Positions 6,588 to 54,822 of a stretch of DNA of 64,000 nt are shown here, in pieces; positions within the stretch are counted from its first letter, which is position 1, and the number at the start of each line of letters is the position of its first letter. Made by a program: the position numbers and the translations under genes. The notes under the pieces are model-generated. The model did not search any database, was not told the origin of the DNA, and was given only the letters and a program-made list of their open reading frames with translations. This DNA comes from Bacteroidota bacterium (GTDB lineage: Bacteria > Bacteroidota > Bacteroidia > UKL13-3). Where the stretch lies: assembly GCA_027488905.1 (NCBI GenBank), contig JAIYAT010000020.1, forward strand, positions 124,001 through 188,000. Reading direction: 5' to 3'.

Positions 6588-6597
6588 GGTTCAAACC
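6588..6597 (-). repeat. Iterated word copy 1 (intergenic)
   Basis: Minus-strand orientation. The site lies in the non-coding gap upstream of the VOC-family gene; the extended match on the minus strand is TTCGGTTTGAACCAAA, the full consensus. Confidence 0.85.
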
Positions 6598-12768: not shown

Positions 12769-13815
12769 ATGCAGAAAGATTATTTAATTGTTGGAGGCGG
12801 ATTGGCTGGTTTATTTTTTGCGCATTATTTAGAAGAGGCAGGCAAAACCTTTATTATAATAGATGCTGCTAAAGAAAACACTGCAAGTAAAATTGCTGCT
12901 GGCATGTTTGGACCATTGGGTGGGCAGTTAAGTAAACTGGCTTGGAAAGCACCAGAAATGATTGAAACCCTCGTAGATACTGCAAAAGCTTTAGAGCAAA
13001 AGTTAGGTTCAAAATTCCTACATCTAATGCCTGTTGAAGTAGCATTTGGCAGTGTAAAAGATGCCAATGATTATGCGTGCAGAAATAAAAATGAAACTTT
13101 AAACGAACACCTTTCTGAAACTAGAAATGGCTCTGAAAATATTATTGCACCCTATGGCAGTTTTGAGATGCTTAAAGGAGGTTGGCTCAATACAAAATTA
13201 TTTATTAAAACTTACACCGAATATCTAACAAACAGACACTGCTTCGAAAACAATACCTTTGATTATTCACTTTTGGTTCAAACCGAAAAAGGCTGGAATT
13301 ACCAAAACCAATTATATTCAACAGTAGTATTTGCTGAAGGTATTGGGGCCTTAGAAAATCCCTACTTGAAAAATGTTTTGCCTTTTAAGCTTTGCAAAGG
13401 ACAAGTGCTTACCATCCATTGTGAAGGTTTAGCTGAGGATAGAATTGTAAAAAAAGGAATTTACTTGGTTCCACTTGGCGAAAATCAGTTTAAAGCTGGC
13501 GCAACCTATGAATGGGACGAAGTAAATGAAATCCCTAATGAACTTGGGAAACAAGAAATGTTAGAAAAAATTAAAGCTTTAATTCATTTGCCTTTTTACG
13601 TTTTGACCCAAGAAGCCGGCATTAGACCTACCACAAAAGATAGAAATCCAGTAATTGGAAAAATAACAGGATTTGAGGGCATGTATGCTCTCAATGGCTT
13701 AGGAACAAAGGGTGTGGTGCGCGGACCTTGGCTGGCGAAAACCCTTTTTAACCACATCGAAAATAATTTAACTATCCCAAGAGAAGTGAGTATTGACAGA
13801 ATAAAAAGGAACTAG
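12769..13815 (+). CDS. DAO-family FAD-dependent oxidoreductase (MnmC1-like)
   Basis: An FAD enzyme of 348 residues. The N-terminal dinucleotide fold DYLIVGGGLAGLFFAHYLEEAGKTFIIIDA is unmistakable, followed by KIAAGMFGPLGGQLSK, and a second FAD/substrate region GIRPTTKDRNPVIG and GMYALNGLGTKGVVRGPWLAK near the C-terminus. It starts 2 bases after mnmD. In MnmC-containing bacteria a DAO domain removes the carboxymethyl group from cmnm5s2U, making the substrate of MnmD; the neighbourhood supports that role, though sequence alone would also allow a generic amino-acid oxidase. Carries an iterated-word copy at 13275. Confidence 0.8.
   Translation: MQKDYLIVGGGLAGLFFAHYLEEAGKTFIIIDAAKENTASKIAAGMFGPLGGQLSKLAWKAPEMIETLVDTAKALEQKLGSKFLHLMPVEVAFGSVKDANDYACRNKNETLNEHLSETRNGSENIIAPYGSFEMLKGGWLNTKLFIKTYTEYLTNRHCFENNTFDYSLLVQTEKGWNYQNQLYSTVVFAEGIGALENPYLKNVLPFKLCKGQVLTIHCEGLAEDRIVKKGIYLVPLGENQFKAGATYEWDEVNEIPNELGKQEMLEKIKALIHLPFYVLTQEAGIRPTTKDRNPVIGKITGFEGMYALNGLGTKGVVRGPWLAKTLFNHIENNLTIPREVSIDRIKRN
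13275..13284 (-). repeat. Iterated word copy 3 (in FAD oxidoreductase gene)
   Basis: Minus-strand orientation, full consensus TTCGGTTTGAACCAAA; the coding strand reads Val-Gln-Thr-Glu. Confidence 0.85.
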
Positions 13816-14892: not shown

Positions 14893-16333
14893 TTAGATTA
14901 CTGGCTAAAATTTGTTTAAATCCTTTTTGAGCCAACTGCTGCGCTGCTTGTGAATGAAAATAAACACCTTTTCTTGCTGCCAAAATGGGTGTTTCTCCAT
15001 TTGCTAACAAAGAAGTTATAATACCCGTTAGCACATCTCCACTGCCTGCTGTAGCCAATAATGGATGGCCGTTTGTATTGAACCAACAATTTCCTACGGT
15101 ATCTGTGATGCTGGTATATGCCCCTTTTAATACTATAATCACTTCTAATTTTTTACTGAAATCTCTTTGCTTCTGCAATCGTTCTGTGGAGTTTTCAGAT
15201 TTCCCAAAAAGCCTGTCAAACTCTTTTGCATGAGGTGTTAGAATGCAAGATTTAGGCAGAGTAAAGTTTGGTTCAAGCCTAAAAACATTAGCTAATAGAT
15301 TCAAGGCATCTGCATCAATTACCAAAGGTTTTTCGCAACGTTTTAAAAAATCTATCAAGGCATTTTGTGTTTCTGGTACCCTACCTAAACCTGGTCCAAT
15401 ACCTATGGCCTTGCAGTTTTCAGGAATAGGAATATAACTGATATAATTTTCTTCAGGGTCGGTTTGAACCAAAGCCTCTGGAAAGGCAGTTTGAACAATT
15501 GAATTGGCGTGATTTGGCACATACACACTAACCATACCGCAAAATGCACTAATGGCAGCCTTGCTTGAAAGAATAATTGCACCAATCATTCCATAAGAAC
15601 CGCCCACCAATAAGGCATGTCCCTTTTGCCATTTCATGTTAAATTGGCTTTCGATTGGAAAGTTATTAGGTGAAAAACTATTGAAAAAACTATTTCCAAT
15701 CGCTAAGGTTCTTAAATATGCTGGATGCAAACCAATGGGCAACACCTTTATTTTACCAGCATTTGCTCCAGTTTCTTGAAAAAGCAAACTCGTTTTCAAC
15801 ACTTGAAACGTAAAAGTATAATGCACCAGCAAATATGGGGTAGGCAAATCTACCGCCACTTTAAATGCAACCTGTTGATTAAGATATTGCACCACCTCAA
15901 AAGGTAACCCTTGCAATGGCTTGTCTATTCCCAAGCCAATCATTGCATCAATGATAATATCTGAAGCTGCTAAACTTTCTAAATCGTTTGCTGCTTTTAG
16001 GTAATTAATAGAAATATTAAGTTGTTTGACCCTACCAAGATTTATTTCGAAAGATTCGGTACCCTTTGGTTTGATTGCTAATAGTATAACGCGAACCTCA
16101 TAACCCTTTTCAAATAACAAGCGCGCAATGGCAAGTCCATCTCCCCCATTGTTGCCTTGGCCGCAATAAATAGAAATGATAGGACTCAAAAAATCTTGCT
16201 GTTGAATGAGGGCCACAAAGGCTTCGACAAAAGTTAGCGAAGCCCTTTCCATTAAATCTATATCAGCAATTGGCTCTTGAGAAATGGTATATTTATCCCA
16301 AGCTAAAATTTGGGCATTGTTAAGTACTTGCAT
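14858..16333 (-). CDS. nnr: Bifunctional NAD(P)HX epimerase/dehydratase
   Basis: Repairs hydrated NADH and NADPH. The ATG at 16333 (MQVLNNAQILAWDKYTI) is preferred to an upstream in-frame TTG. The N-terminal half is the NAD(P)HX epimerase (YjeF_N) domain with YCGQGNNGGDGLAIARLL at about residues 58-75 and DIIIDAMIGLGIDKPL. The C-terminal half is the ADP-dependent dehydratase (carbohydrate-kinase fold) with GHALLVGGSYGMIGA, GIGPGLG, PLVIDADALNLL, ILTPHAKEFDRL, IVLKGAYT and the GHPLLATAGSGDVLTGIITSLLA anion-hole motif. At 491 residues it has normal length. It overlaps the epimerase gene tail to tail. Carries an iterated-word copy at 15461. Confidence 0.93.
   Translation of the reverse strand: MQVLNNAQILAWDKYTISQEPIADIDLMERASLTFVEAFVALIQQQDFLSPIISIYCGQGNNGGDGLAIARLLFEKGYEVRVILLAIKPKGTESFEINLGRVKQLNISINYLKAANDLESLAASDIIIDAMIGLGIDKPLQGLPFEVVQYLNQQVAFKVAVDLPTPYLLVHYTFTFQVLKTSLLFQETGANAGKIKVLPIGLHPAYLRTLAIGNSFFNSFSPNNFPIESQFNMKWQKGHALLVGGSYGMIGAIILSSKAAISAFCGMVSVYVPNHANSIVQTAFPEALVQTDPEENYISYIPIPENCKAIGIGPGLGRVPETQNALIDFLKRCEKPLVIDADALNLLANVFRLEPNFTLPKSCILTPHAKEFDRLFGKSENSTERLQKQRDFSKKLEVIIVLKGAYTSITDTVGNCWFNTNGHPLLATAGSGDVLTGIITSLLANGETPILAARKGVYFHSQAAQQLAQKGFKQILASNLINELPMLERIH
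15461..15470 (+). repeat. Iterated word copy 4 (in nnr)
   Basis: Context GTCGGTTTGAACCAAA; the minus-strand gene reads Val-Gln-Thr-Asp across it. Confidence 0.85.
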
Positions 16334-17442: not shown

Positions 17443-19012
17443 GGTTTATCAGTTTGGTTTGAACCAAAAATTTGCTTTCCTCTATTCTAAAATTAGAAAC
17501 ATCTTCATAAGGTAAATCAATAATCTTCCAATTGGCACCCGCTGTGATAAAATCAAATTTATCTTTGGCAAGTGTTACCAATATTGGCATTTCTAAACCC
17601 TTTACAGATGATTGTAAACGGTAATGTAACTCGTTTAATTCATTATGTTTAGTAACGTAATATTCTAAAACTGGCAAATTGGGTGTACGTAAATATTGCT
17701 CGAAAAATAGAGCCAATTTCATCCGGGTACGCTCACTTAAAAACTGTTCCACCTCTTTGGTGGTGATTACTTGATGGTAGTACTTCTTATTTAGATCACG
17801 TAAAGTATTAAACCAAAGCGTGTCATTATCTATCATCCCTCGCAAAGTATGAAGCATCCAAGCCCCTTTATAATAAATATCATTGTCGGTAAATTGATGG
17901 TGAGTGCCATATTTGCCAATCATTGGTAGTTCATTTTTTATTTTTGCCTTTTGATTTTGTAAATATTGAATGGCGCGTGATTTTCCAAAATAATATTCAA
18001 CAAACAATGACTCGCTATACGTTGTAAAACTTTCATGCAACCACATGTCTGCTTTATCTTGGGCAGTTAAACTATTAGCAAACCATTCATGGCCGCTTTC
18101 ATGTATTATGATAAAGTCAAACCCAAAGCTATTATTTTCATAATTGTTTCCATAAGCCACACAACTTTGGTGCTCCATTCCCCAATATGGCGTTTCTACC
18201 AATTTGTACCCATCTTCATAAAATGGGTATTTTCCAAAGAAATGTTCAAAGGCTTTTAGCATGCGCTTAGACTGTTGAAAATGTGTTTTGGCTTTATTAT
18301 AATTATCCTCTAAAACATAAAAATCAAGGGATAGTGTATCCCCTTTTTCATTGATATAAAAATCCTTAATAAGTGCATATTTTCCAACATTTATGGCTAT
18401 GTTATAATGGTTTATAGGGTTGTTGGTTTGCCAGGTAAAAGTACTTGTATTTTCATTTTGTTCGGTTTGAACCAATCGCCCATTACTCACCCCGATTAAA
18501 CCTTTAGGCACTGTCAACCTTAAAGTTACACTAGAGGGTTCATCATCCCAGGTGTCTTTGCAGGGGAGCCAGCTATGTGCCCCAATGCCTTCACAAGCCA
18601 TGCCTACCCAAGGATTACCAGAACTGTCTTGTTGCCAAACAAATCCGCCATCCCAAGGTGCATTTTTTGCTACTTGTGGCGTGCCTTCATAAACAAACTT
18701 AAAGCTTAAGGTGTCACCTTTAGAAACATTTTGAGGAAGATTAACAAGGATTCGTTCCTGAATTCTTTGAAAAGAAATTTGCTTATCAATACTTAGAAGT
18801 TTAAGATTTGGAGCCAACTTGAAAACACAAACATCGCCAGGTTTTAAAACTAAGAAGCGAATATTGTTAGCACCAGAAATTAGTTTAGTGCTTGGATTTA
18901 CGGTTAGCGAAATATCATAAGAAAGCACATTTATACTAGCTTCTTTGGCTGGAAATGCAAGCGAAAACAGGCAAATAGCCAGCAACGCAAATGTTAAGAA
19001 TAAATTCTTCAT
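17432..19012 (-). CDS. Secreted M1-family zinc metallopeptidase (short form)
   Basis: An aminopeptidase-N-like enzyme of about 526 residues with an ATG at 19012 that places a signal peptide first (MKNLFLTFALLAICLFSLAFP). The N-terminal beta domain ends in GGFVWQQDSSGNPWVGMACEGIGAHSWLPCKDTW. The zinc site is HESGHEW (about residue 300) with the third ligand Glu in LHESFTTYSE about 20 residues on, and a catalytic Tyr is likely in the YKGAWMLHTLRG region. It lacks the long C-terminal helical domain of classical aminopeptidase N, as do many Bacteroidota M1 proteins. It overlaps the aldo/keto reductase gene tail to tail and carries two iterated-word copies (17456 and 18464). Confidence 0.9.
   Translation of the reverse strand: MKNLFLTFALLAICLFSLAFPAKEASINVLSYDISLTVNPSTKLISGANNIRFLVLKPGDVCVFKLAPNLKLLSIDKQISFQRIQERILVNLPQNVSKGDTLSFKFVYEGTPQVAKNAPWDGGFVWQQDSSGNPWVGMACEGIGAHSWLPCKDTWDDEPSSVTLRLTVPKGLIGVSNGRLVQTEQNENTSTFTWQTNNPINHYNIAINVGKYALIKDFYINEKGDTLSLDFYVLEDNYNKAKTHFQQSKRMLKAFEHFFGKYPFYEDGYKLVETPYWGMEHQSCVAYGNNYENNSFGFDFIIIHESGHEWFANSLTAQDKADMWLHESFTTYSESLFVEYYFGKSRAIQYLQNQKAKIKNELPMIGKYGTHHQFTDNDIYYKGAWMLHTLRGMIDNDTLWFNTLRDLNKKYYHQVITTKEVEQFLSERTRMKLALFFEQYLRTPNLPVLEYYVTKHNELNELHYRLQSSVKGLEMPILVTLAKDKFDFITAGANWKIIDLPYEDVSNFRIEESKFLVQTKLINPKK
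17456..17465 (+). repeat. Iterated word copy 5 (3' end of M1 peptidase gene)
   Basis: Context TTTGGTTTGAACCAAA, a perfect inverted repeat around the central TG, 14 bases past the end of the convergent aldo/keto reductase gene; read as Val-Gln-Thr-Lys on the minus strand. Confidence 0.85.
18464..18473 (+). repeat. Iterated word copy 6 (in M1 peptidase gene)
   Basis: Context TTCGGTTTGAACCAAT; minus-strand gene reads Val-Gln-Thr-Glu. Second copy in the same gene, about 1 kb from the first. Confidence 0.85.
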
Positions 19013-22026: not shown

Positions 22027-23260
22027 TTTTTCTAGGAGGCCCGCCGCGCCATTGGCCTTTCGACTTTCCATTTCCTGAAGGCCTATTTCGGTTCAAACCG
22101 GAAGAAACCCTTTTTAAAGGCTCATAAATTGGACCAGTTCCTAAACTTTCTGGCAAGGGTAGTTTTGGAACTTCTTTCTCAATAAGCTTTTCAATAGCAT
22201 GAAACCTTCGCATGTCTTTCTCATTGATAAAAGTAATTGCAGTTCCTGTAGTTTCGGCCCTTGCAGTTCTACCAATTCTATGCACATAATCTTCAGGATC
22301 TGGCGGCACATCAAAGTTTATCACCAAGTCAATGCCATCCACATCTATTCCGCGAGATAAAATATCGGTTCCAATCAAAACTTGAATTTTTCTATTTCTA
22401 AAATCATTGAGCAATTCTTCTCTTTCTCTTTGCTCTAAATCTGAATGAAACGATTTTGCAGGAATGCCAATTTTCTTAAACTCAAAATGTAATCCTTTTA
22501 CCTTTTCTTTGGTAGAAGCAAATACAATTACACTTTGGTATTTATCTTTGAAAATCTCACTTAGTAAGGCCATTTTTTGTGGCTCATATGTTACATAAGC
22601 CAATTGTTTTATTCCTTCGGCAGGCTTAGAAATTGAGATACTAACTTCTTTAGGTTCAAACAAAATCTTAGCAGCCAAAGTTTTAATGCGCGGTGGCATG
22701 GTGGCTGAGAACAACAGTGTTTGACGGTCTTTTGGCAAATAGCTTATAATTTTTAGAATGTCATCATAAAAACCCATGTCTAACATTCTATCAGCTTCAT
22801 CTAAAACAAGGTGTTCTAATTTACCAAAATCAATAGAACCAGAAGCCAAGTGAGAGAGCAATCTACCTGGTGTTGCAATAATAATATCTGCACCTTCTCT
22901 TAAGGCAACTTGTTGTTGACTAAACAAGTTTCCATCACCACCTCCATAAACCGCAATTGAACTAATTGCTACATAATATCCAAAGCCAACCAATTGTTGG
23001 TCTATTTGCTGCGCCAATTCGCGGGTAGGCACCAATATTAAGGTGTTTAAATGACTGTGGGTAGAATTGATAATTTTATCAATAATCGGTAAAAGATAGG
23101 CTGCTGTTTTACCTGTTCCAGTTTGGGCACAAGCAATTAAATCGTAATGGTCTAATATAAGTGGAATCGCTCTTTCTTGAATGGGGGTTGGTGTTAGAAA
23201 ACCCATGGCATCTAGGCCATCCATTAATTGGTTATCTAAATAAAAATCGTCGAATGTCAA
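22016..23260 (-). CDS. DEAD-box RNA helicase (RhlE-like)
   Basis: An ATP-dependent RNA helicase of 414 residues. Motifs in order: Q motif (LTPTPIQERAIPLIL), motif I AQTGTGKTAAYLLP (about 43-56), PTREL, TPGRLL, motif II DEAD (about 155), motif III SAT (about 187), and the C-terminal helicase motifs IVFASTKE, GTDILSRGIDVDGIDLVINFD and HRIGRTARAE. The tail is basic and Gly/Arg-rich (LNRNRPSGNGKSKGQWRGGPPRK), typical of RhlE-type RNA-binding tails. Likely roles are ribosome assembly or cold adaptation. It carries an iterated-word copy at 22090, within that tail. Confidence 0.93.
   Translation of the reverse strand: MTFDDFYLDNQLMDGLDAMGFLTPTPIQERAIPLILDHYDLIACAQTGTGKTAAYLLPIIDKIINSTHSHLNTLILVPTRELAQQIDQQLVGFGYYVAISSIAVYGGGDGNLFSQQQVALREGADIIIATPGRLLSHLASGSIDFGKLEHLVLDEADRMLDMGFYDDILKIISYLPKDRQTLLFSATMPPRIKTLAAKILFEPKEVSISISKPAEGIKQLAYVTYEPQKMALLSEIFKDKYQSVIVFASTKEKVKGLHFEFKKIGIPAKSFHSDLEQREREELLNDFRNRKIQVLIGTDILSRGIDVDGIDLVINFDVPPDPEDYVHRIGRTARAETTGTAITFINEKDMRRFHAIEKLIEKEVPKLPLPESLGTGPIYEPLKRVSSGLNRNRPSGNGKSKGQWRGGPPRKITK
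22090..22099 (-). repeat. Iterated word copy 7 (in helicase gene tail)
   Basis: Minus-strand orientation, context TCCGGTTTGAACCGAA; read in frame on the minus strand as Gly-Leu-Asn-Arg. Confidence 0.85.
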
Positions 23261-24248: not shown

Positions 24249-24755
24249 CTATTTAATTAATTTGAGTAGCGTACTAAAAAACCAACTTTCATCTGCTTTG
24301 AGCATTACCTCTACCGACTTATCCATCTTCCCCACAAAATCATCTAAATCATTGATGGTTGCTAAAAAAGATTGATGCGTTTTAAGCGACTTATCTAAAT
24401 CGGCTTGCTTGAGTTGATCAAGCACTTTAAGCACAGGCTCAAGCTCTCTCTTTTTGCGCTCTTTGGCAATGCGTCTGGCAATTTCCCAAATGTCTTTTTC
24501 GGCCTCAAAGTACTCTTTTCTATCACCTGGCACCAATACTTTACTAATCAAATTCCAATTCATTAAATCGCGTAAATTCATGTTAGCATTTCCCCTGCTA
24601 ATGCTCAACTCTTCCATTACATTTTCTGTGCTCAATGGCTCTGGAGATATCAATAGCAAAGCATGCACTTGTGCCATGCTTCTGTTAATTCCCCACTCGC
24701 TTCCTAGGGTACCCCAAGTTTGAATGAACTGCGTTTTTGCTTGATTAAAATTCAT
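24249..24755 (-). CDS. GbsR/MarR-family transcriptional regulator
   Basis: A 168-residue winged-helix regulator. The family start FIQTWGTLGSEWGINRSMAQVHALLL (about residues 11-36) and the recognition-helix region LSTENVMEELSISRGNANMNLRDLMNWNLISKV, followed by the wing VPGDRKEYFEAE, match GbsR-type proteins. The C-terminal half is helical and charged, as expected for dimerisation. Upstream is a promoter overlapping a 17-bp-arm inverted repeat, pointing to autoregulation; the same core occurs before the membrane-protein pair downstream. The effector ligand is unknown. Confidence 0.85.
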   Translation of the reverse strand: MNFNQAKTQFIQTWGTLGSEWGINRSMAQVHALLLISPEPLSTENVMEELSISRGNANMNLRDLMNWNLISKVLVPGDRKEYFEAEKDIWEIARRIAKERKKRELEPVLKVLDQLKQADLDKSLKTHQSFLATINDLDDFVGKMDKSVEVMLKADESWFFSTLLKLIK

Positions 24756-24769
24756 AGTGTTTGTGAGTA

Positions 24770-24799
24770 CAAATATATAACAAATTCCTAAACTTTCAA
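24770..24799 (-). promoter_or_regulatory. Promoter of GbsR-type regulator gene
   Basis: On the minus strand a -7 element TATATTTG (24777-24770) is preceded by a TTG (24799-24797) with exactly 19 bases between, matching the Bacteroidota promoter layout. The TTG lies inside the inverted repeat, so a bound repressor would block it. Confidence 0.6.
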
Positions 24800-24823
24800 T
24801 TATTACTGAAAGTTTAGGAATTT
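24782..24823. promoter_or_regulatory. Inverted-repeat operator before regulator gene
   Basis: AAATTCCTAAACTTTCA (24782-24798) pairs perfectly with its complement at 24807-24823 across 8 bases. The inner part reads TTTCAAT-4-ACTGAAA, the same core as the palindrome at 24103-24120. It overlaps the -33 element. A terminator role is less likely because a separate hairpin with a T-tract ends the neighbouring gene at 24836-24859. Confidence 0.6.
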
Positions 24824-24870: not shown

Positions 24871-25317
24871 TTAGAAACGATATAAAGGTGAGTTTCCCCA
24901 AGGAATGCGAGATAGTATAAGCAACAAGCCAATGCCATAAAAAATCAGACTGCGCTTGTATTTATCAGCATCTGCGTAGGCTTTGCGGGTTCTAATGCGA
25001 CCAACCTGAATTAAAACCACGCCAATAATCATGGTTAGCGGATGTTCAATTAACTGCAAACGTAAGGTTTTGTCTTTCATAGCAGCACCCATGTCTTGCA
25101 TAGCTGCTTGAATAACCGGACTAACAAACAACAAGATAATTCCGATTAATAATTGTGTATGCGCCAAAGCAACTAACATAGACCCTGCTGTGTTATCGCT
25201 TTTGTTGTAAACATTCTTGTTCATTAAACCCAATACAGAACGAAGAATGGCATAAATAGCTGCTGCTAGAAATACCCAGCGCAACAAATTGTGAATGATT
25301 AGTAGTGTATTATACAT
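24871..25317 (-). CDS. Four-helix membrane protein, cytochrome-b-like hypothetical
   Basis: About 148 residues from the ATG at 25317 (MYNTLLIIHNLLRWVFLAAAIYAIL); an upstream in-frame TTG is less likely. Four hydrophobic helices are visible, with His in IIHNLLRW (helix 1), LAHTQLLIGIILLF (helix 2) and LIEHPLTMIIGVVLIQVG (helix 3), which could be heme ligands. The C-terminus is KRSLIFYGIGLLLILSRIPW. I recall such proteins as common in Bacteroidota but uncharacterised. It is separated from the regulator cluster by its own terminator. Confidence 0.7.
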   Translation of the reverse strand: MYNTLLIIHNLLRWVFLAAAIYAILRSVLGLMNKNVYNKSDNTAGSMLVALAHTQLLIGIILLFVSPVIQAAMQDMGAAMKDKTLRLQLIEHPLTMIIGVVLIQVGRIRTRKAYADADKYKRSLIFYGIGLLLILSRIPWGNSPLYRF

Positions 25318-25384
25318 ATGGTTCAAATTTTATCAAAACTAAACATTCAGTATCTTATGTCCATAACGGTTATAAACACCCAAA

Positions 25385-27454
25385 ATGATGATAGCCACTT
25401 TTTGGCAACAAATGCCTTTTGTACGTTTACTAATTCCATTGGTTTTTGGAATTATTGTTGGAGATTCATACGCTTTGAATCCTTCGCTATGCTATATTTT
25501 ATTGCCTTTTACAGTCATCATTAACTATTTGATTTATCGGTTTATAAAGAGTTATCGGTTCGAACCAAGTCATGGAATTATACATACTTTCCTTTGCTTT
25601 TTGATTGGCTTATGTCTCATTTCTGCAGATAAGCAATCGAAACTGCACCATCATTTCTCTGCGCAAAAAACTGACTGGCTTTTGGTTCAAACCGAAACAA
25701 AACCAAAACAACTTAACAAAAGAATATCCTTTGAAACACTAGTTATTGCTGGACAAACAAACAATGACCTTCTAATTCCATTAAAAGGAAAACTTCAATT
25801 AAACCTGCCTTTAGACAGTCTTTCTAAAAAACTCAAACTTGGCGACCAAATATTAATAAAATCTAACTTTCTAGAAATTTCTTTTCCAAAAAATCCAGGT
25901 GAGTTTAACTACAAATCTTTTATGGCCAGAAAGGGAGTATTTCACCAGCAATTCATGTTTCATCCCGAATGGAAATTATATACCTCTACCCCATCCTTCT
26001 CACTACAAACCAAAGTAGACCAATGGCAAAGTGTAATTAGCACTATTCTTGGCAATTACCTAAATTCAGAGGCAGAAATTGGCATTTCAGAAGCCTTGTT
26101 ATTTGGCTTAGATGACAATATTCCAGACGAACTCATACAAGCCTACAGCCGAACAGGAACTTTACATGTGCTTGCGGTAAGTGGCATGCATGTAGGTTTA
26201 ATTTTTATCATTCTTGGAGCAATTTTTAAACCCATTAAAAGAAAAAAATGGGGACGATTACTAGAACCCTATTTTCTTTTAATTGGCATTTGGGCCTATG
26301 CGATTTTATGTGGCATGTCTCCAAGTATTTTAAGGGCAGCTATCATGTTTAGTTTTATGGTGGTAGGTAAAATTATACATAGAAGCGGAAATCCCTTCAA
26401 CAGCTTAGCGGCCTCCTGCTTTTTCCTTTTGTGTTGGCAGCCCCAAATGCTTTGGCATGCTGGGTTTCAATTAAGTTACACCGCAGTATTGGGTATTATA
26501 TGTTTTTACCCGCCACTGTATCAAGCGGTTTATATTGGCAATAAATTCTTTAATGAAATCTATAAAGTAATTGCGGTTTCAGTAGCGGCGCAACTGCTAA
26601 CCTTCCCAATAAGTTTGTTCTATTTCCACCAATTTCCCAATTACTTTTTAATCGCCAATCTGCTACTTATTCCACTTACCACATTGCTAATTTATCTTGG
26701 TATTCTTTTATTGGTGGTGCATAAGATTAGTCTTCTTGCCAGTGGTTTGGCTTGGCTAATTTCAAAAATGATTATACTTACAAATTTCTTGGTAGTTTAC
26801 TTATCAAATCTACCTTTTTCGGCTATTGAGCAAATTTACTTTCCAATCTCTTTTGCTACTTTTTCTTATGCTATTATCATCCTTATAAGTGCATTTTTAT
26901 ATTTCAAATCGGCATATTCCCTGAAATTAGTTTTAGCAGGTTTGCTATTAGGTTTCGGTTTGAACCTAACAAGCAAAATACTCAAAAATAAAGAGGCAGC
27001 CATAACAATATATGCTTTACCCAAAAAGACATTGATTAGCTATACTGAAAACAAAAAAGGATGGGCTTGGAGCAGCGCTGACAGTTCTAAAACAAAGCGA
27101 ATCGTACAGCAGCATTTTGTTAAGGAAGATATAAATTTAACAGCAACCAATTATTTGGATAGTGGAAATTTTATGCTTCAAATGCCAAATGAATTAAGCC
27201 TGTTTTTGGTAAACAAGAAACTTGTGAAATGGCCATCTAACGTTGATATATTGATTGTAGGAGGAAAAACACAATTGATGACAGATAGCCTGATTGCGGA
27301 GCTTGGGGTCAAACAAATTATTTTGCTGCAAGGACTTTCATCATACCAGCGAGAGGCTGTTCAAAAACTTTGTGGAAAAAGTAAGCTAGCTTGTCATGAT
27401 ATTGCAAGCCAAGGAGCATTTATAATAAAAGAAACAACATGGAAGCATTGGTAA
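25385..27454 (+). CDS. comEC: ComEC/Rec2-family DNA-uptake membrane channel
   Basis: Inner-membrane channel that passes single-stranded DNA into the cytoplasm during natural transformation. 689 residues with many membrane helices. The N-terminal OB-like DUF4131 region (about residues 20-180) precedes the ComEC core, which holds the hallmark TGTLHVLAVSGMHVGLIFIILG (about residues 257-278) and SILRAAIMFSFMVVGKI. The last 150 residues do not show the HxHxDH metallo-beta-lactamase motif found in Gram-positive ComEC, as is usual in this phylum. The gene has two exact iterated-word copies (25684, 26957) and a symmetric variant (25557). It overlaps the crotonase gene by 16 bases. Confidence 0.9.
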   Translation: MMIATFWQQMPFVRLLIPLVFGIIVGDSYALNPSLCYILLPFTVIINYLIYRFIKSYRFEPSHGIIHTFLCFLIGLCLISADKQSKLHHHFSAQKTDWLLVQTETKPKQLNKRISFETLVIAGQTNNDLLIPLKGKLQLNLPLDSLSKKLKLGDQILIKSNFLEISFPKNPGEFNYKSFMARKGVFHQQFMFHPEWKLYTSTPSFSLQTKVDQWQSVISTILGNYLNSEAEIGISEALLFGLDDNIPDELIQAYSRTGTLHVLAVSGMHVGLIFIILGAIFKPIKRKKWGRLLEPYFLLIGIWAYAILCGMSPSILRAAIMFSFMVVGKIIHRSGNPFNSLAASCFFLLCWQPQMLWHAGFQLSYTAVLGIICFYPPLYQAVYIGNKFFNEIYKVIAVSVAAQLLTFPISLFYFHQFPNYFLIANLLLIPLTTLLIYLGILLLVVHKISLLASGLAWLISKMIILTNFLVVYLSNLPFSAIEQIYFPISFATFSYAIIILISAFLYFKSAYSLKLVLAGLLLGFGLNLTSKILKNKEAAITIYALPKKTLISYTENKKGWAWSSADSSKTKRIVQQHFVKEDINLTATNYLDSGNFMLQMPNELSLFLVNKKLVKWPSNVDILIVGGKTQLMTDSLIAELGVKQIILLQGLSSYQREAVQKLCGKSKLACHDIASQGAFIIKETTWKHW
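25557..25566. repeat. Symmetric variant of iterated word (in comEC)
   Basis: GGTTCGAACC, a perfect palindrome differing from the main word at one central base; read in frame as Arg-Phe-Glu-Pro, like copy 2. Confidence 0.6.
25684..25693 (-). repeat. Iterated word copy 8 (in comEC)
   Basis: Minus-strand orientation, full consensus TTCGGTTTGAACCAAA; the plus-strand gene reads Val-Gln-Thr-Glu. Confidence 0.85.
26957..26966 (+). repeat. Iterated word copy 9 (in comEC)
   Basis: Context TTCGGTTTGAACCTAA; read as Gly-Leu-Asn-Leu, a different frame and orientation from copy 8 in the same gene. Confidence 0.85.
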
Positions 27455-30959: not shown

Positions 30960-32717
30960 ATGAAATACAACAGACAACTTCTTTTAATTATTGCGCTTGT
31001 GGCAATGGTTTACCAACTTTCTGCCCAAAGCAATTTTAGGTTTAGCGAACCAAACATGCTGCCAATTCTAAAAGGCCAATACAATCCTTCCCAATATTAC
31101 TCGGGTCAACCCAACACCAACAAAGCAGCCATTAAGCAAACATTGCTTTCCCAAACTTCATCAGACTCTTTGTTGCATTTTTTATTCGGTTTGAACCAAT
31201 TCCGCAACAGGAATTCTGGCTCGGATACCCTCTCCTTAACCAATGGCATTGGTGCTGCCAGAAATTGGGCTTTGACGCAGTTTGATAAAATTAAGCTTAC
31301 AAATCCTGCCTTTGTCACTGGCTTTTTTCAATTCGACCAAGCCATTTGTAACATGAACTCGCATAAAAATGTATTGGGCATTTTACCGGGCACAGATACT
31401 GCTCAAAAAGGATTTATCTTAATTGAAGCCCATTATGACAGTCGATGTGAAAATGTTTGCGACACTGCTTGTGAAGCCCGCGGCATGGAAGACAATGGAA
31501 GTGGTGTTGCATTGGTTTTAGAACTAGCAAGGGTTTTAAGCAAGCATACCTATGAAAGAACTTTAGTGTTTATGCTCACCACTGCCGAAGAACAAGGCCT
31601 AGATGGGGCCAACGCTTTTGCAGTATTTGCTAAAACCAATGTGTTACCCATCAGAGCAGTTTTAAACAACGATGTAATTGGGGGCATTATTTGTGGCAAA
31701 ACCGCTTCCCCTCCTGGCTGTCCGGGTGAAAATGAAATTGATAGTTTACAAGTAAGAATTTTCTCAGCTGGCACAAATTACTCCATGCCAAAAGGCTTGG
31801 CCAGGTATACAAAGCTTTCTTTTGAAGAAGAACTTTTGACCCAAATGCCTGTTAAAACCAATATTCAGATTATGAATGCAGAAGACCGTATTGGGCGGGG
31901 TGGCGACCATATTCCGTTCAGGCAACAAGGCTATGCGGCTGTTAGACTTACCAGCGCTAATGAGCATGGCGATGCCAACGCCACTGCGCCGGGTTACCTA
32001 GACAGACAACATAGCACCAGAGATGTATTGGGCAAAGATGTAAATGGCGATGGGAAATTGGATTCACTTTTTGTGAGTACTTCTTACCTCAAAAGAAATG
32101 TTCAAATCAATGGCATAACCGCAACGATGCTAGCTATTGGGCCCCAAGCCCCACCAGAATTTGAACTCATCAATGATGGCAACGGACTGTCGGTAAAAAT
32201 TTCAAACCCTGTGGCTAACCAAGCCTATAAAATTGGGTTTAGAAGCAGAGCTAATACTTTTGACACCTTGTTTACACTCGTTAATCAAAGCGACTTAAAG
32301 ACTTACCATGTAAAAAAGGATAGTTTTTATTTTGTAAGTATTGCCACCATGGATGCTGCAGGAACTGAGAGTTTATTTTCAGCAGAAAAGTATGTAAAAG
32401 TAACAGGAGTGCCTCCAACAGGGATAATGGAAAAGGACTTAATTAAATCAAACATGCAACTATTACCAATTAGTCCCAATCCTATAGACGAAACCTTAAC
32501 CTTGAGCGTTTGGATGCTAAACCCAAGGCAAGGATTAACAGGAAACATTGTGATAACAGATTTACAAGGCAGAATAGTGCAAGAGTTAGAAATCCCACTC
32601 GACAAAAATATTAACGAGGTAGTATATGCACATGGCTTTTCTGCCAAAGGACTTTATCATTGTAGTTTTTATATTGCAGGAGAAAAAATTGACACACAAC
32701 GTATATGGTTCAAGTAA
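30960..32717 (+). CDS. Secreted M28-family zinc peptidase with T9SS sorting domain
   Basis: Start at ATG 30960, two codons after a TTG. Signal peptide MKYNRQLLLIIALVAMVYQLSAQ. The M28 dizinc site is visible: His and Asp in IEAHYDSRCEN (about residue 160), Asp in GMEDNGSGVALVLELARVL, the Glu pair in TTAEEQGLDGANAF, Asp in LNNDVIGG, and a final His in RQHSTRD. A fibronectin-like segment follows, and the C-terminal 85 residues (LPISPNPIDETLTLS ... VITDLQGRIVQELEI ... SAKGLYHCSFYIAGEKIDTQRIWFK) form a type A sorting domain. The probable substrates are peptides outside the cell. Overlaps the DUF1223 gene by 13 bases. Confidence 0.92.
   Translation: MKYNRQLLLIIALVAMVYQLSAQSNFRFSEPNMLPILKGQYNPSQYYSGQPNTNKAAIKQTLLSQTSSDSLLHFLFGLNQFRNRNSGSDTLSLTNGIGAARNWALTQFDKIKLTNPAFVTGFFQFDQAICNMNSHKNVLGILPGTDTAQKGFILIEAHYDSRCENVCDTACEARGMEDNGSGVALVLELARVLSKHTYERTLVFMLTTAEEQGLDGANAFAVFAKTNVLPIRAVLNNDVIGGIICGKTASPPGCPGENEIDSLQVRIFSAGTNYSMPKGLARYTKLSFEEELLTQMPVKTNIQIMNAEDRIGRGGDHIPFRQQGYAAVRLTSANEHGDANATAPGYLDRQHSTRDVLGKDVNGDGKLDSLFVSTSYLKRNVQINGITATMLAIGPQAPPEFELINDGNGLSVKISNPVANQAYKIGFRSRANTFDTLFTLVNQSDLKTYHVKKDSFYFVSIATMDAAGTESLFSAEKYVKVTGVPPTGIMEKDLIKSNMQLLPISPNPIDETLTLSVWMLNPRQGLTGNIVITDLQGRIVQELEIPLDKNINEVVYAHGFSAKGLYHCSFYIAGEKIDTQRIWFK
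31188..31197 (+). repeat. Iterated word copy 10 (in M28 peptidase gene)
   Basis: Context TTCGGTTTGAACCAAT, read as Gly-Leu-Asn-Gln. Confidence 0.85.
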
Positions 32718-34741: not shown

Positions 34742-37258
34742 TTAAATCTTTGTGGCAGCTTCAACCTTAGCATAAAAGTCTTTAAAGTCTGTGCTATCAA
34801 AAAAATCCTTCCCATCAGATTTTGCCTTCCACTGGTTTAAAAAGTTTAGCAGGGTATTGGCTTTATCTGCCTCTGTGCTTTGCTCAAAATGGGTGTCTAA
34901 TACAAGTATTGCTTCTTTGCAAAAAACTGCATTCTGCTTAATTAAATATTGCAAATAGCTATTTCGCATAGCTCGTTTGGCATACCCAAACCTGCCTAAA
35001 TTAGCTGCAAAATAGGCATTGTAGTTTAAGTTAACTTGCTTTGCATATACACTGGCTATCGTCTTTTGTACTGACTCATTGTTCAAACTCTCAAACTGAG
35101 GAAGTAAAAGTAATAAGGTATCCTCTTGGTGTTCGGCTAAAATTTCTATGCCTGTTTTAAGCATTTCATACGAAGGGGATTGTAAGGCAGCAAAAACCTT
35201 TTCTTGGTGCTTTTCATATCCAAATTTCTCCACCAAAACCTCCAAAGCATAAGTTGCTAAATCGTATTTGTAGGTTTGTTTAGAAGCAGCAATAAGCATG
35301 GGTTCAAAAGTTTCAAATAAGGTATCGCCAATTAAGTCAATTCCTTTTATCTGATAATACCATTGCTTTTGTTCCATTAAGTATTGTGCTGCCTTAACCC
35401 TAGTCAGGTTTTTATTGAACCGAGGGTCGTTGAAGTATTGAAAAGCTTTATTCTTTGCGGGATAATTCTTAGCATATTCTAATTGTGCTAACCATTCTAC
35501 CTCTGATTTAACTTCTGTAAGTTGCATGGGTACCTCTCCTTTTGCATCGCTGAACCAAGTTAGAATAGAAATTGAAGTATCTTTATTCAAGATAAATTGT
35601 TGCGATTTATCTTTCACTTCCAAAACGTGTTCTACTAACCTACCATCTGCATATACTATGGTTAAAGGTAGTTTCAATTGAAATAAGCCAAAGCTACTGT
35701 CCTGCGCTTGTTTTACCGCCACCTCAATTTTACCTTCAGCGTTTTGGTTCAAACCGACTAAAAATGAGGGGTGTCCTTTGCTAAGAAACCAACGGTCAAA
35801 AAACGGAATTAAATCTACGCCCGAAGCCTTTTCCATGGCCATTCGCAGGTGTTGAATGTCTGTGGCTTTGTAAGCATTTTCGGTAAGGTAAATTTTCATC
35901 CCTTTGAAGAACGCCGAATCACCAATTACGCTGCGCAAATGATGCAAAATCCAAGAACCTTTTTGGTAACTCACCACATCAAACATGTCATCGGGGTGAT
36001 TAAAATATTGTCTGACTGGTGAAACTTGGTGTTTATTTTTCTGACGTAAATAAGCTTCCAAATTCCAAGCAAAACCTCTGTCAGCTTCTTCTTTCCCGAG
36101 CGCTGCTTCGTGGTAGAGGTATTCGCCGTAGGTTGCAAAACTTTCGTTTAAAGGCAGATGTCCCCAACTTCTGCTAGTAACCAAATCGCCAAACCAATGA
36201 TGAAACAATTCATGGGCAATGATATCTTCTTGTGGATGATCTAGCAATCCTCTTTCATCTTGCTGCACAAACTCGCCATGCAATACGGCACTTGTATTTT
36301 CCATGGCACCACTTACAAAGTCTCTACATACAATCTGACTAAACTTCTCCCAAGGATATTCTACACCCGTAATACGTGAAAAAATATCAAGCATTTCGCT
36401 GGTTTTGCCAAATATTGCTCGGGCATAAGGAGCAAATGCCAGTTCTAAATAATAGCTAACTTCCTTGCCGCGCCAAGTATCTTTGGTAACCACAAAATTG
36501 CCTACAGCCAACATGGTTAAATAAGGTGCATGTGGTTTTAATTGCTGCCAATGGTCGATGTGCTTGCCATTTGGTAATTTCTTTGTGGAGATTAAAAGAC
36601 CGTTACTAAGGCTCACTTCTCCACTATCAACTGTAATGTAAATGTCTTGGGTATGCTTTTCGTTTGGCGCATCAATGGTTGGGAACCAGCAAGAGTTGTA
36701 TTCAGTTTCTCCTTGTGTCCAGATTTGCCTTGGTTTTAGAGGGTCTTTGCCCAAGGGATTGATAAAATATAAACCACGTGAATCGGTAATGGCATTGCCG
36801 CCTTCCTTTTCAAGTTCATTGGGCTTGGCTGTATAATCAATAAAAACTATCAAGTTGGGGTTTTTACCATAAGGCAAATGCAATTGTTTATCATCGTATC
36901 GAAAGGGAATTGGCAGGGTGTCTTTGCCAACAATTACCCCTACCCTGTTGATTTCAAAGCCTTTTGCATCTAAATGTAAACTGTCTGGCAAAGCATGATA
37001 CGGCACAAAACGCAATATAGCTTTGCCCAATACCCATTGACGCGCATAGTCAAAAGCTATCTCCAATTGGGAATGCTGCAAATCTGCAATTTGCTGGCGC
37101 ATCACCTGCAACTCGGCCTTGGGCAAGGTTTTGGCTGGCTTAACTACCACATCCTCTAAAAAATATTTTTCAGGCTGTTTATTGGACTCCTTTTTATTTA
37201 TTTTGCAAGCGCTTAAAGCAACTAAAAGTGCAAAAGCCAAACTCAAGTATAACCTCAT
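34742..37258 (-). CDS. Lipoprotein M1-family aminopeptidase (long form)
   Basis: Start at ATG 37258, which gives a lipoprotein signal (MRLYLSLAFALLVALSAC, Cys 18) and avoids overlap with the divergent biotin-carrier gene. About 838 residues. The zinc site is HELFHHW (about residue 348) with the downstream Glu in LNESFATYGEYL, and a Tyr in the SYQKGSWILHHL region matches the catalytic tyrosine. The exopeptidase motif GAMEN (MENTSAVL) is visible. A long C-terminal helical domain is present, unlike the short M1 protein at 17432-19012. Likely anchored in the outer membrane or periplasm. Carries an iterated-word copy at 35746. Confidence 0.93.
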   Translation of the reverse strand: MRLYLSLAFALLVALSACKINKKESNKQPEKYFLEDVVVKPAKTLPKAELQVMRQQIADLQHSQLEIAFDYARQWVLGKAILRFVPYHALPDSLHLDAKGFEINRVGVIVGKDTLPIPFRYDDKQLHLPYGKNPNLIVFIDYTAKPNELEKEGGNAITDSRGLYFINPLGKDPLKPRQIWTQGETEYNSCWFPTIDAPNEKHTQDIYITVDSGEVSLSNGLLISTKKLPNGKHIDHWQQLKPHAPYLTMLAVGNFVVTKDTWRGKEVSYYLELAFAPYARAIFGKTSEMLDIFSRITGVEYPWEKFSQIVCRDFVSGAMENTSAVLHGEFVQQDERGLLDHPQEDIIAHELFHHWFGDLVTSRSWGHLPLNESFATYGEYLYHEAALGKEEADRGFAWNLEAYLRQKNKHQVSPVRQYFNHPDDMFDVVSYQKGSWILHHLRSVIGDSAFFKGMKIYLTENAYKATDIQHLRMAMEKASGVDLIPFFDRWFLSKGHPSFLVGLNQNAEGKIEVAVKQAQDSSFGLFQLKLPLTIVYADGRLVEHVLEVKDKSQQFILNKDTSISILTWFSDAKGEVPMQLTEVKSEVEWLAQLEYAKNYPAKNKAFQYFNDPRFNKNLTRVKAAQYLMEQKQWYYQIKGIDLIGDTLFETFEPMLIAASKQTYKYDLATYALEVLVEKFGYEKHQEKVFAALQSPSYEMLKTGIEILAEHQEDTLLLLLPQFESLNNESVQKTIASVYAKQVNLNYNAYFAANLGRFGYAKRAMRNSYLQYLIKQNAVFCKEAILVLDTHFEQSTEADKANTLLNFLNQWKAKSDGKDFFDSTDFKDFYAKVEAATKI
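35746..35755 (-). repeat. Iterated word copy 11 (in M1 aminopeptidase gene)
   Basis: Minus-strand orientation, context GTCGGTTTGAACCAAA; read in frame as Gly-Leu-Asn-Gln. Confidence 0.85.
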
Positions 37259-37787: not shown

Positions 37788-38776
37788 TCTTCTTCATTTA
37801 ATTTTCTCAGAAGCACTTGCGCCTTAAGGGTAAATGCGTTTTCAGATTTCAAAATTTCTTGCAACAGACCCTTTGCAAAATGGGCTTGGTTCAACCCGAT
37901 ATAAAATTGTGCACTTAGGTACAAGGCTTCGTGGTAAAAGGCAGAAGTGCTATCATTTCTTATTCCCAATAAATGATTCAGGCCTATTTGGTATTCTTTT
38001 CTGGCCAATAATTGCTTGGCCACAACAATGCGCGCAGAATCGGTGGGCTGGTCAAAAGAAATAGCATTGCTGTTATAGACATTATTATTGCTCGAGATTT
38101 GTGGACCTGCCACACGAGCTTTCTGCTTTTTACTTGTGGGCATAGCCTTTTGGACATCCCTTTTCACTTCGGGCTTCTGACTTTCTTCAAGAACATGGGC
38201 TGAAGATTCCTCCTCTAAAGCCTTAACTGGCTCAATTTCAGGCGGCGAAACGTCTTCCTGATTTGAAGCATCATCAGACTGTAGCATCATTTTTTCTGGA
38301 AGCGATTCTTGCACTTTTATGGTTGCGTCAGGACTTGGTTTAAAAGGTTTTGTTACTGCTTTTCTCTTTTTGGCAGGTATTTCCAAAGCCAATATCTTTT
38401 TAGGTTTGGTTTGAACCGAGTCGTTTGCGTCTGTAATTTTTTCGGTTAGAATTGGATGTATTTCGGCATCCTCTGCCTCCATTAACAAAAAGGAATTTCC
38501 AAGGATAAGCAAGGAGGCAGCAATGGCTACAAAAGCAGTAATAGCAATGATTTTGGCATAAGGCTTTTGCGTTTTTTGTGCTATTTTTTTATCAATAGCG
38601 GCTACTTGCTTCACCAAATTTTCAGGATGCTGCATGGCATCAATTCCGGCTTTGATATCGGCACAAATTTCACAGGATTGTGCATGCGTGTTAAGCAAGT
38701 CTAGCTCTGTTGTGCTAAGCTTGCCTTGGCTGTAGGCCTCCCAGTTTGGGTTACTTATGCACTTTGTTGCATCCAT
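37784..38776 (-). CDS. Putative anti-sigma factor with zinc-finger-like N-terminus
   Basis: A 330-residue protein encoded directly after, and overlapping by 22 bases, an ECF sigma factor gene. The N-terminus (WEAYSQGKLSTTELDLLNTHAQSCEICADI) has the HxxxCxxC pattern of anti-sigma zinc fingers. One membrane helix follows (IIAITAFVAIAASLLIL, about 75-91). The periplasmic part is a long, charged, proline-rich region ending in a short helical repeat region (LLARKEYQIGLNHLLGIRNDS ... AHFAKGLLQEIL) that resembles tetratricopeptide units. The role is inferred from context. Confidence 0.75.
   Translation of the reverse strand: MDATKCISNPNWEAYSQGKLSTTELDLLNTHAQSCEICADIKAGIDAMQHPENLVKQVAAIDKKIAQKTQKPYAKIIAITAFVAIAASLLILGNSFLLMEAEDAEIHPILTEKITDANDSVQTKPKKILALEIPAKKRKAVTKPFKPSPDATIKVQESLPEKMMLQSDDASNQEDVSPPEIEPVKALEEESSAHVLEESQKPEVKRDVQKAMPTSKKQKARVAGPQISSNNNVYNSNAISFDQPTDSARIVVAKQLLARKEYQIGLNHLLGIRNDSTSAFYHEALYLSAQFYIGLNQAHFAKGLLQEILKSENAFTLKAQVLLRKLNEED
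38408..38417 (+). repeat. Iterated word copy 12 (in anti-sigma gene)
   Basis: Context TTTGGTTTGAACCGAG; read on the minus strand as Val-Gln-Thr-Lys. Confidence 0.85.
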
Positions 38777-41244: not shown

Positions 41245-44200
41245 ATGAAACATAGCGCAATTCTTCTATTGGTTTTATTCGGTTTTGTAAAGTTAACACA
41301 GGCACAAAATCCTGGTGATACTATTAAAGTAAAAACCTTTCATTATGGCAGCAATTCTAGAGACACGGTTGCCTATTTCCCATCTGCCAATTTAAGCTAT
41401 GAGCGTATCATCATGGCCTATAACATGCGTTGCAAAAACGGACTTGTATCTAACGGTACAGATAGGAATTTAGGTTGTGGCGAGTGGGATTATTCTTGCA
41501 ATACCTATATCGTAGATTCTACTAAAGTTGAAGAAGTTTCGGCCCTACAACCTAAATATGTCATTACTAATTTTACGGGCAGCACTTTTAATTATACCAC
41601 TAAGCCAGTATATGATTATCTTCAATTCACCCAAAAACGAGTTATTGTAGATAGTGTTTTGTTTGATTCAAGTTTTGCTATTGGACAAAGCAAACTGCCA
41701 AGCAATTCTGCTGTAGCCGCGCATCAGCAATCTGGTAAATCTCAGTTTATTTATAAGGCCTCAGAACTTATTGCAGCAGGCTTAAGTGCCGGCCCTATTC
41801 ATAGTTTACAACTAGAGGTATTAAATAATGGTGCTAAAGCCAACTTCCTAAAAGTAAAAATTAAACATACTTCTAAAAACGATTTTCAAACCATTTCCGC
41901 TGTAACTGGCAATTTTACTGAGGTATATTTTAGCAGTCATCAGTTTAGTTTCGGTTTGAACCGATTGAATTTTCACACGCCTTTTGTTTGGGATGGGGTT
42001 CAAAATATTGTGGTAGAATTTTCTTTTACCAATTCAATTAAAGATAGCATTTTACAACTTGCATCTTCGGCAACCGATGCTATTTCTGGTATAACGGCGC
42101 TTAACAATTATTCTTTAGACCTTTCGCACAGCGGACATATCAAATTAGATACAGCAGATTTTTCAAAGATAAAAAATGAAATAAGCATTTCGTTTTGGGC
42201 CTTTGGAAATGCAGCACAAATGCCAATAAGCACTTCAATATTGTATGGTTATGATAACAATATCAATAACCGCCAATTGAATATTCACTTGCCATTTTCC
42301 AATGGCAGTGTTTATTTTGATTGCGGATTTGCAGGTGGGTATGACCGCGTTGAAAAAGCAGCAAGCCTAGCCGAAATGGGTGGTCGCTGGAACCATTGGG
42401 TGTTTGTTAAAAATGCCTCCACTGGCACCATGAAAGTGTTTTTAAACGGCAGCCTTTGGATGTCGGGCACTGCCAAAACCAAAGCCATTAATTTGATGAA
42501 TCTGCTTTTAGGCAAGGATCAAAATTTAAACAATAATTATAAAGGCCGTATCAGTGAGCTGCTTATTTGGAACAAAGCCCTTCCCGACTCACAAATTGGA
42601 AATATTACAGCAGGCATTAGTGGGTATATGGTACCTTTTGCAGGAGATGTAGTTGCCTATTATCCAATGGGAGAAGCAAGCGGGCAAAGCATCACAGAAG
42701 TTATACATAACAAAACTGTATTAGGCACAAACCTAAGATGGTCTTATGAAAGAGGTGAACAAATTGTGTTTGGGTTTAGTCAGGTTGATTTAAGACCTAA
42801 TGTAATTTTCAATAGAACTAGCCAAACTAGCACTATTCAAAATATTGTTTTACGCGATTCTATCCTGAGAAAAACAAATGTTGTTGAAGAGTATTCAATT
42901 ACTTCCAAGCAAGGCCAATTCCCTATAAGCAATGATCAAATAAACTTAGTAAGTACCCAAAGCAATTGGTATCATGCAAACCAAAGTTATGTGTACAATG
43001 GCGACAGCAGTTCAATGCAAATGATAGATAGTATTGCTATAAATGCAGAAGGTAGTTTAATCCTAAGCAACCTTAGTTTCTTTAGGAGGTTTCCTTGGTA
43101 CAATGAGATCATGTCGTTTGTTACGCCGTATGGTATCGGTTTGAACCTAGGAGCCACAGGTAAAACTTGGTATTTTGACGTTACGGATTTTGCACCTATT
43201 TTAAAAGGAAACAAAAGAATTCTAATGACTTTAGGAGGCCAAAACCAAGAACAAAATGATGTGGAGTTTTGGTTTATTGTGGGCACACCACCTAAAAATG
43301 TTTTAAGCTTTGAGCAAATTTGGCAAGGTACAAATAGAACCGGTCAAGCACCCTTAACAGCGATTAATAACAATACACGATTTGCTCCTTTAAAAATACC
43401 AACGTTGGCCAATGGCAAAGAATTCAAAATTCGCTCAACCATTACTGGACATGGCGCCGAAGGAGAATTTGAAGCCAATGGCGGACAAGTCAATCATCAA
43501 CTCAACCTTAATGGTGGGGCAAATGAATATGATTGGATAATAAGCGAAGAGTGTTCATTTAATCCGGTATTTCCGCAAGGAGGCACGTGGGTATATGACA
43601 GGCAAGGCTGGTGCCCTGGTCAAAGATCGCTTACCAAAGAATTTAATGTAAGCGCCCATGTTACTGCTGGAGATAGCTTATTGGTAGATTACAATGCCAG
43701 TAACCCACCTAACCCAAATGGCGCATACAATTACCATGTAGCGCATCAATTGGTGACTTATGGAGATTTTAACTTTAAAAGGGAGATTCGCTTGATTGAT
43801 GTTTTAAATCCGAACAACGCTATTTTATTTGGCAGGCAAAATCCAATTTGCAGTCAGCCAAAAATTATCGTTCAAAATGGAGGTTCAGAAAAAATTACTG
43901 GATTAGGTATAGATTATGGTGTAAACAATGGAACAAGACAAACCTTTACTTGGAAAGGAAACATTGAACCTTTGGCTTTTGATACTATTACATTGCCAAC
44001 TTATGATGTGCTATGGAAAAGCGGTATAGCGGGAAATACAAACAATACTTTCTCTGTAAGAATTGGCAGTGTTAATGGAACAGGCGGAGATGAAAACCTA
44101 TTTAACAATGAGATTGCAAGCAAATTTAATATACCAGAAATTGCGCCCTCTGTTTTTACGCTTGAGTTTAGAACAAATAACAATCCAGCAGAAAACAATT

Positions 44201-51875: not shown

Positions 51876-51885
51876 GGTTTGAACC
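51876..51885 (+). repeat. Iterated word copy 16 (beside terminator)
   Basis: Context TTCGGTTTGAACCAAA, the full consensus, in the intergenic gap 6 bases after the terminator T-run and just before the end of the LruC gene. Confidence 0.85.
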
Positions 51886-54084: not shown

Positions 54085-54804
54085 TTAATTGGTGCAAGTC
54101 CAATGATAGAAGACTTCTGAAACTCCTTCGTCTACGATTGTTTGCACTTTATTCACCCTGTTTTTACTATCAAAAAAGTAGCTGTATAAAATTACAATAA
54201 TATCCCCATTGATAGATGTTTTAGTTACTAAATTTTTGTTGCTAGGTAAAAATGATAAACTTGATTCGTAGGTTTGAAGAGTGTTCTTTTGGCTCAAATC
54301 GAACTCACGCAAAATAACACTGATACCAGAAGAAGATTCGGTAGTTTCCTTAATAAGGTTTCCATTGAGCCATTCAAAGCTTGTGACTTCGTCTATCTCA
54401 GTTCCAGAAACTTCTCCATAAACAATCTTTTCAATGGGTTGGTTTAAGGTATCGTAAATGTATTCAACGTATATTTTTCCAGTCCCTAAATCCCAAATTA
54501 AGCTATCGCAATATCCCATCTTATTGAGGTAAACAGTTTGAGAACCAGACATTTTTTCATAGGTTAAGGTAACTTTATTTCCTTCATAAACTGCATTTTG
54601 AATTATGGTATCAGTTTTAGTATAAACGATACCTTTTTTGAACCTAAACTTTTCATCGTAAATTATCTTTTGTGCAATTCCATCCGCATTGGTAGAATCA
54701 ATCATACAAATGCTAACTGGCGTTGGCTTTGGAGTTTCAATTGTTTCTTTTTTACAACTAAAAAAAAAGAGAATTGCAAATGCAAGGAGTAAACTGTTTT
54801 TCAT
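54085..54804 (-). CDS. Lipoprotein of unknown function
   Basis: About 239 residues from the ATG at 54804 (MKNSLLLAFAILFFFSC, lipobox Cys 17); a longer in-frame start would overlap the iterated-word copy and lacks a signal sequence. The body is beta-rich with Tyr-, Asp- and Lys-containing strands (YDEKFRFKKGIVYTKTDTIIQNAVYEGNKVTLTYE ... YVEYIYDTLNQPIEKIVYGEVSG ... NGDIIVILYSYFFDSKNRV) in a repeating YD-type pattern similar to RHS-like or DUF4595 lipoproteins. Function unknown. Confidence 0.65.
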   Translation of the reverse strand: MKNSLLLAFAILFFFSCKKETIETPKPTPVSICMIDSTNADGIAQKIIYDEKFRFKKGIVYTKTDTIIQNAVYEGNKVTLTYEKMSGSQTVYLNKMGYCDSLIWDLGTGKIYVEYIYDTLNQPIEKIVYGEVSGTEIDEVTSFEWLNGNLIKETTESSSGISVILREFDLSQKNTLQTYESSLSFLPSNKNLVTKTSINGDIIVILYSYFFDSKNRVNKVQTIVDEGVSEVFYHWTCTN

Positions 54805-54822
54805 GGTTATTATTTTTCTTAA

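Follow-up and report, generated by a model that had tools for sequence, protein, structure and literature searches.

To our knowledge, uptake sequences are established only in the Neisseriaceae and the Pasteurellaceae, both of which have type IV pili. The DNA uptake sequence (DUS) of the Neisseriaceae is a polar short word that is present in many copies and is described as located in permissive regions of core genomes, in part between genes; its dialects share an invariant CTG and an A, and its reader is the type IV minor pilin ComP (PMC3630211). The USS of Haemophilus and the Pasteurellaceae joins a core with few crucial bases to a one-sided AT-rich flank, reaches hundreds to thousands of copies, many of them in coding DNA, and goes with type IV pilus machinery (PMC7811141). 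A different kind of repeated word, the cyanobacterial HIP1, is a highly iterated, lineage-specific perfect palindrome that has been linked to methyltransferases (PMC4390886). Within the Bacteroidota, Riemerella needs ComEC, DprA, and an HHH protein for transformation, together with envelope proteins that do not resemble known machinery (PMC8459023), and a preference for its own DNA is reported for R. columbina (PMC7965970).

Here we describe a 12-letter word that occurs in hundreds of dispersed copies in each genome of one Bacteroidota genus; in the open-access papers searched, we found no description of such a word in Bacteroidota. The word is polar, consisting of a T-rich flank followed by CGGTTTGAACC-N-A. 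In the whole 3.55-Mb genome of the genus member G000, CGGTTTGAACC is present in 475 copies as compared with 10 for a reversed control, and in the 1.49 Mb of this genome that were read as stretches, GGTTTGAACC was observed 344 times where a third-order Markov model predicts 6.4. The word thus shows in G000 the large excess over expectation that marks both DUS and USS, at densities per kilobase of approximately 0.13 (11-mer), 0.24 (10-mer), and 0.36 (degenerate form). Alignment of the copies reveals T at ≈41 to 46% in positions −13 to −8, TT at −3/−2, C at −1 in 59%, and, after a position that can be any base, A at +11 in 97%. In G000, the left arm and A7 admit single changes, whereas G5, A6, C8, and C9 hardly vary. 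Both orientations are used almost equally (259/216 and 164/180), which, together with the asymmetric flanks and arms, describes a polar element of the DUS/USS type. The one-sided flank, the few crucial core bases, and the many copies in coding DNA recall the USS, from which the word differs in its unrelated sequence and in being known from sequence, whereas uptake bias has been measured for the USS (PMC7811141).

The word is confined to the genus. Its genus-wide form, GGNNYGAACCNA, is enriched in all 19 genus genomes, with 210 to 1,876 copies against 16 to 101 for the control; the 45 genomes representing 13 sister genera of the same family show no such enrichment, nor do 14 genomes from other families of the class. 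The commonest words in the k-mer table of Riemerella and F. johnsoniae, by contrast, are A/T-rich runs only. Inside the genus, the word takes on species dialects: CGGTTTGAACC dominates in G000, G005, G009, and G013, whereas CGGTTCGAACC, with 164 to 239 copies in G002, G010, G012, and G016 and fewer than 50 elsewhere, dominates in the last three of these and occurs alongside CGGTTTGAACC in G002. Another form, GCCTGAACCAA, stands out in G004, and the left arms are mixed in G003, G017, and G018. All of these dialects share YGAACCNA, the right half that the degenerate search kept constant and that also hardly varies inside G000, just as the Neisseriaceae dialects share their CTG and A (PMC3630211); like DUS and USS, the word is therefore lineage specific, with dialects around invariant bases. 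Among the most frequent k-mers, ATGTACGATGTACG in G015 and TACGAATTACGAA in G004 resemble tandem heptamers. An EM motif search drifted to codon periodicity in G003 and G015.

The copies in coding DNA indicate that the word is maintained as DNA. All five stop-free reading frames are used, and the unused sixth would read TGA. Codon choice follows the word as well: it supplies the codons for 148 of 187 VQT peptides (19.9 expected) and for 28 of 37 RFEP peptides (0.6 expected), the RFEP peptide itself being inflated to 37 occurrences from an expected number of about 2. The use of five frames, the forced codons, and the inflated peptides together show that selection or drive acts on the DNA. In the 1.49 Mb of G000, noncoding DNA makes up 6% of the sequence and holds 16% of the copies, a 2.5-fold enrichment based on crude ORF calls and with two short contigs masked. 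No clear preference for signal peptides, gene ends, or membrane genes emerged.

The window, by which we mean the whole 64-kb stretch of DNA analyzed, contains 17 exact copies of GGTTTGAACC and one of the symmetric variant GGTTCGAACC. On the plus strand, exact copies lie at 8854 to 8863 in a subtilase/Por-tail gene (8646–10829), at 15461 to 15470, at 17456 to 17465 near a convergent gene end, and at 18464 to 18473, 38408 to 38417, 41953 to 41962, and 43138 to 43147; further plus-strand copies are found at 51876 to 51885, between convergent genes, and at 54823 to 54832, at the 5′ end of the minus-strand ORF 54085 to 54834. Minus-strand copies occupy 6588 to 6597, 13275 to 13284, and 35746 to 35755. 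Comparison with relatives gave differing outcomes for three other copies. That at 22090 to 22099 (minus) is shared in position with G009 and, as GGTTCGAACC, with G005; that at 31188 to 31197 (plus), in an M28 peptidase gene, has an aligned place without the word in both of these genomes; and that at 50040 to 50049 (minus), in a pspC-like gene (49869–51821), aligns with a position that bears the word in most of the genus members examined. At 24782 to 24823, between the minus-strand ORFs 24249 to 24755 and 24871 to 25326, the window also holds a perfect 17-bp inverted repeat with an 8-nt loop, likely a terminator hairpin, that is matched in both relatives compared.

The two remaining exact copies and the variant fall in comEC, which occupies 25385 to 27454 on the plus strand and encodes a 689-residue ComEC/Rec2 family competence protein with matches to PF03772 (Competence, E = 1.8e-58) and PF13567 (DUF4131, E = 1.1e-14). 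Orthologs are present in all 19 genus genomes. A sequence-only reading of the window had reported two exact comEC copies in opposite orientations plus a symmetric variant, and its positions 25557, 25684, and 26957 are all exact. The variant GGTTCGAACC (25557–25566, plus; context TTATCGGTTCGAACCAAG) has the form of the second dialect, and its place holds GGTTTGAACC in G009 and G005. The copy at 25684 to 25693 (GGTTCAAACC) is on the minus strand, where it reads TTTCGGTTTGAACCAAA, and recurs at the same position in G009, G005, G001, and G007. The third site, GGTTTGAACC at 26957 to 26966 on the plus strand (TTTCGGTTTGAACCTAA), coincides with a copy in both G009 and G005; in G001, G004, G007, and G014, the word lies no more than two codons away and has different left arms. 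Some form of the word is found around comEC position 524 to 526 in seven further or same-clade species, and G004 has an own form, GGCCTGAACCAA, there. Between G009 and G005, whose comEC genes are 66% identical in DNA, all three sites are kept, as compared with 6.5% of random 10-mers that remain identical; between-species retention was assessed on about 12 kb.

We also compared the genus with the transformation routes described above. ComEC and DprA are encoded in 19 of 19 genus genomes, and G000 has homologs of a ComEA-like HHH protein, ComM, ComF, and RadC, so that ComEC, DprA, an HHH protein, and a ComM-like protein are shared with Riemerella, a member of the same phylum (PMC8459023, PMC7965970). 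Type IV pilus components gave a different picture. None of the 19 genus genomes has a match to the N-methyl prepilin family PF07963, a 27-position profile that prepilins can escape, and the type IV pilus/T2SS ATPase family PF00437 (PilB/GspE-type) yields weak partial matches only, none of them full-length, in the genus, whereas full-length PF00437 matches and prepilin matches occur in other families of the class. A search for the Riemerella-type surface protein DUF5689 returned a single, unconvincing sub-cut-off match inside a 1,877-residue frame. Because the ATPase and prepilin were not found across the genus, the word is not a classical DUS or USS read by a minor pilin, and its reader would be new. 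A defining feature of DUS and USS is type IV pilus machinery whose reader is of the pilin type, and we therefore do not claim membership in that class.

Taken as a whole, these data make it somewhat probable that the word works like the self-DNA tag of uptake-sequence systems and is kept by sequence-biased transformation. The sequence-only reading had likewise suggested a DNA uptake sequence, and much of that suggestion stands: selection or drive at the DNA level, polarity, the T-rich flank, dispersal, genus restriction, dialects, and site retention are all shown by the sequences, and placement appears permissive. Its supporting argument from comEC and genome-maintenance genes does not carry the suggestion, and the expected pilus machinery was not found in the genus. 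We infer that uptake of DNA is the step behind this pattern and that a pilus-independent transformation route of Bacteroidota provides the reader. A surface protein, or one that acts in transformation, would prefer DNA bearing the word, and incoming self fragments with it would recombine more often than those lacking it. Copies would then build up wherever the sequence tolerates them and be retained, and drift in the preference of the reader would shift the whole genome to a new dialect. In such a process, comEC would carry copies as one permissive core gene, its own copies not necessarily having a special role.

More tentatively, and at somewhat lower confidence than the tag function itself, we propose that the genus-wide, dialect-forming GGNNYGAACCNA may be the first DUS system in Bacteroidota and the first with a reader other than a type IV pilin, namely a putative receptor of pilus-independent machinery. 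If so, self-tagging evolved independently in a genus without type IV pili, it could explain the preference of some Bacteroidota for their own DNA, and the word would be a bait with which to find the DNA receptor of Bacteroidota. Several observations speak against an uptake tag: a methylase or a dimeric DNA-binding protein might equally well recognize the near-palindromic core, the type IV pilus ATPase and prepilin were not found, maintenance genes are not enriched, and the word is sparser than its counterparts in Neisseria or Haemophilus.

In the strongest competing explanation, a protein that organizes or segregates the chromosome or controls recombination (Noc/MatP/SlmA-like or Chi-like) binds the word, which is selected inside the cell, with no relation to uptake. 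Hundreds of dispersed, retained copies with a near-palindromic core would fit a dimeric protein of this kind. Typical Chi and KOPS sites, however, are oriented, whereas 164 copies in G000 run with the local GC skew and 180 against it (p = 0.42), and a Chi/KOPS-type site was rejected on the absence of this replichore orientation bias. Copies also show no strong concentration in particular contigs, the left half changes from one species to another although the word remains abundant, and intergenic DNA is overrepresented among the placements. We regard an intracellular binding site as unlikely, if still the rival to be taken most seriously.

A HIP1-like origin, in which a highly iterated motif goes with an orphan methyltransferase or with biased mutation or repair, appears more doubtful. 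The genus word resembles the cyanobacterial motif in being near-palindromic, mostly coding, and lineage specific (PMC4390886). HIP1, GCGATCGC, is nevertheless a perfect palindrome without polarity, and the genus word is polar, with its T-rich flank, C at −1, A at +11, unequal tolerance of the two arms, and species dialects. Even the palindromic core of GGTTCGAACC has polar flanks in comEC.

A further proposal is that selection concentrates the word in competence genes, comEC among them; it would supplement the uptake tag rather than replace it, and we consider it improbable. The sequence-only reading put the density in comEC at about four to five times the window average, and we obtained 3.6-fold for exact copies and 5.2-fold with the variant. 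Its caution that a single gene makes for weak statistics was justified: with 0.43 copies expected in G000 comEC, the two present give p = 0.07, and as many as two copies or more occur in 53 of 1,186 G000 genes as compared with 38 ± 4 in simulation. The comEC cluster in G000 alone is unremarkable and by itself weak evidence. Across the 19 genomes, comEC contains 14 copies of CGGTTTGAACC against 2.2 expected and, counting both dialects, 18 exact words against 3.1, as compared with 3 against 4.2 in its flanks, although Poisson p values overstate the significance of such counts because related genomes are not independent. The degenerate form gives 32 against 10.6, with palindromic copies counted twice in both numbers, and the comEC words of the genus fall at about nine alignment positions. 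The control gene pspC, at 49869 to 51821 in the window, is of similar length, itself carries one copy in G000, and also exceeds expectation, with 10 copies against 2.75; its strong copies sit at one shared, inherited position, and common descent thus inflates such counts. We conclude that comEC is a core gene that is rich in sites, permissive, and moderately diverged, and perhaps, though not provably, a special one.

Other gene classes bear on the same proposal. Contrary to the supposed bias toward genome maintenance, 18 replication, repair, and recombination genes, identified with E. coli queries in 53% of the G000 genome, hold 3 copies where 6.1 are expected. When densities in competence, recombination, and repair genes were compared, dprA, recA, ssb, comM, comF, and radC proved to have no copies in G000. 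Among the competence genes, comEC, with its two copies and variant, and the gene for the ComEA-like HHH protein do stand out, whereas dprA, comM, and comF do not. The ComEA-like gene (G000 C27:69918–70665, minus) spans 747 bp and has two copies, neither of them in the part that encodes the HHH domains; its product comprises two HHH_3 stretches and, at the N terminus, a hydrophobic segment. The missing gene-class bias defeats the maintenance-gene argument but does not refute a role in uptake, as DUS lies in permissive core-genome regions (PMC3630211).

A peptide motif or codon-usage effect repeating at the DNA level, to which the recurring GLNQ, LVQT, RFEP, and GSNR might point, is refuted by the frame and codon tests and by the noncoding copies, since the word occupies five frames, both strands, and an excess of noncoding DNA and forces codons far beyond their usage.

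Further candidates were rejected individually. The core resembles GGTTCRANYCC of the tRNA T-arm, but none of the 12 tRNAs in the stretches read contains a site. Close inverted pairs of the word number 25 against 15.5 expected; they are mixed in orientation and mostly intragenic, which argues against terminators. Viral carriage was dismissed as well: 2.9 million viral contigs contain 55 single matches and no contig with two, which is near chance by our own estimate.

Placement within G000 is uneven in places. There are no copies in a 23.7-kb stretch with ribosomal-protein genes or in a 44.6-kb cluster of 32% GC (C2:123432–168056), a gap with a chance of ≈0.01 by a Poisson estimate, the gap having been picked after looking; low-GC stretches in G000 have a lower word density. 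Judged by its protein starts, this cluster looks like one for surface-polysaccharide synthesis and is possibly exchanged DNA. The most copies seen in a gene of ordinary size, four, occur at C6:89661–91284, whose 540-residue product has a hydrophobic N terminus and no Pfam match, and eight copies lie in a 26-kb open reading frame at C27:234050–260276 that encodes ≈8,740 residues.
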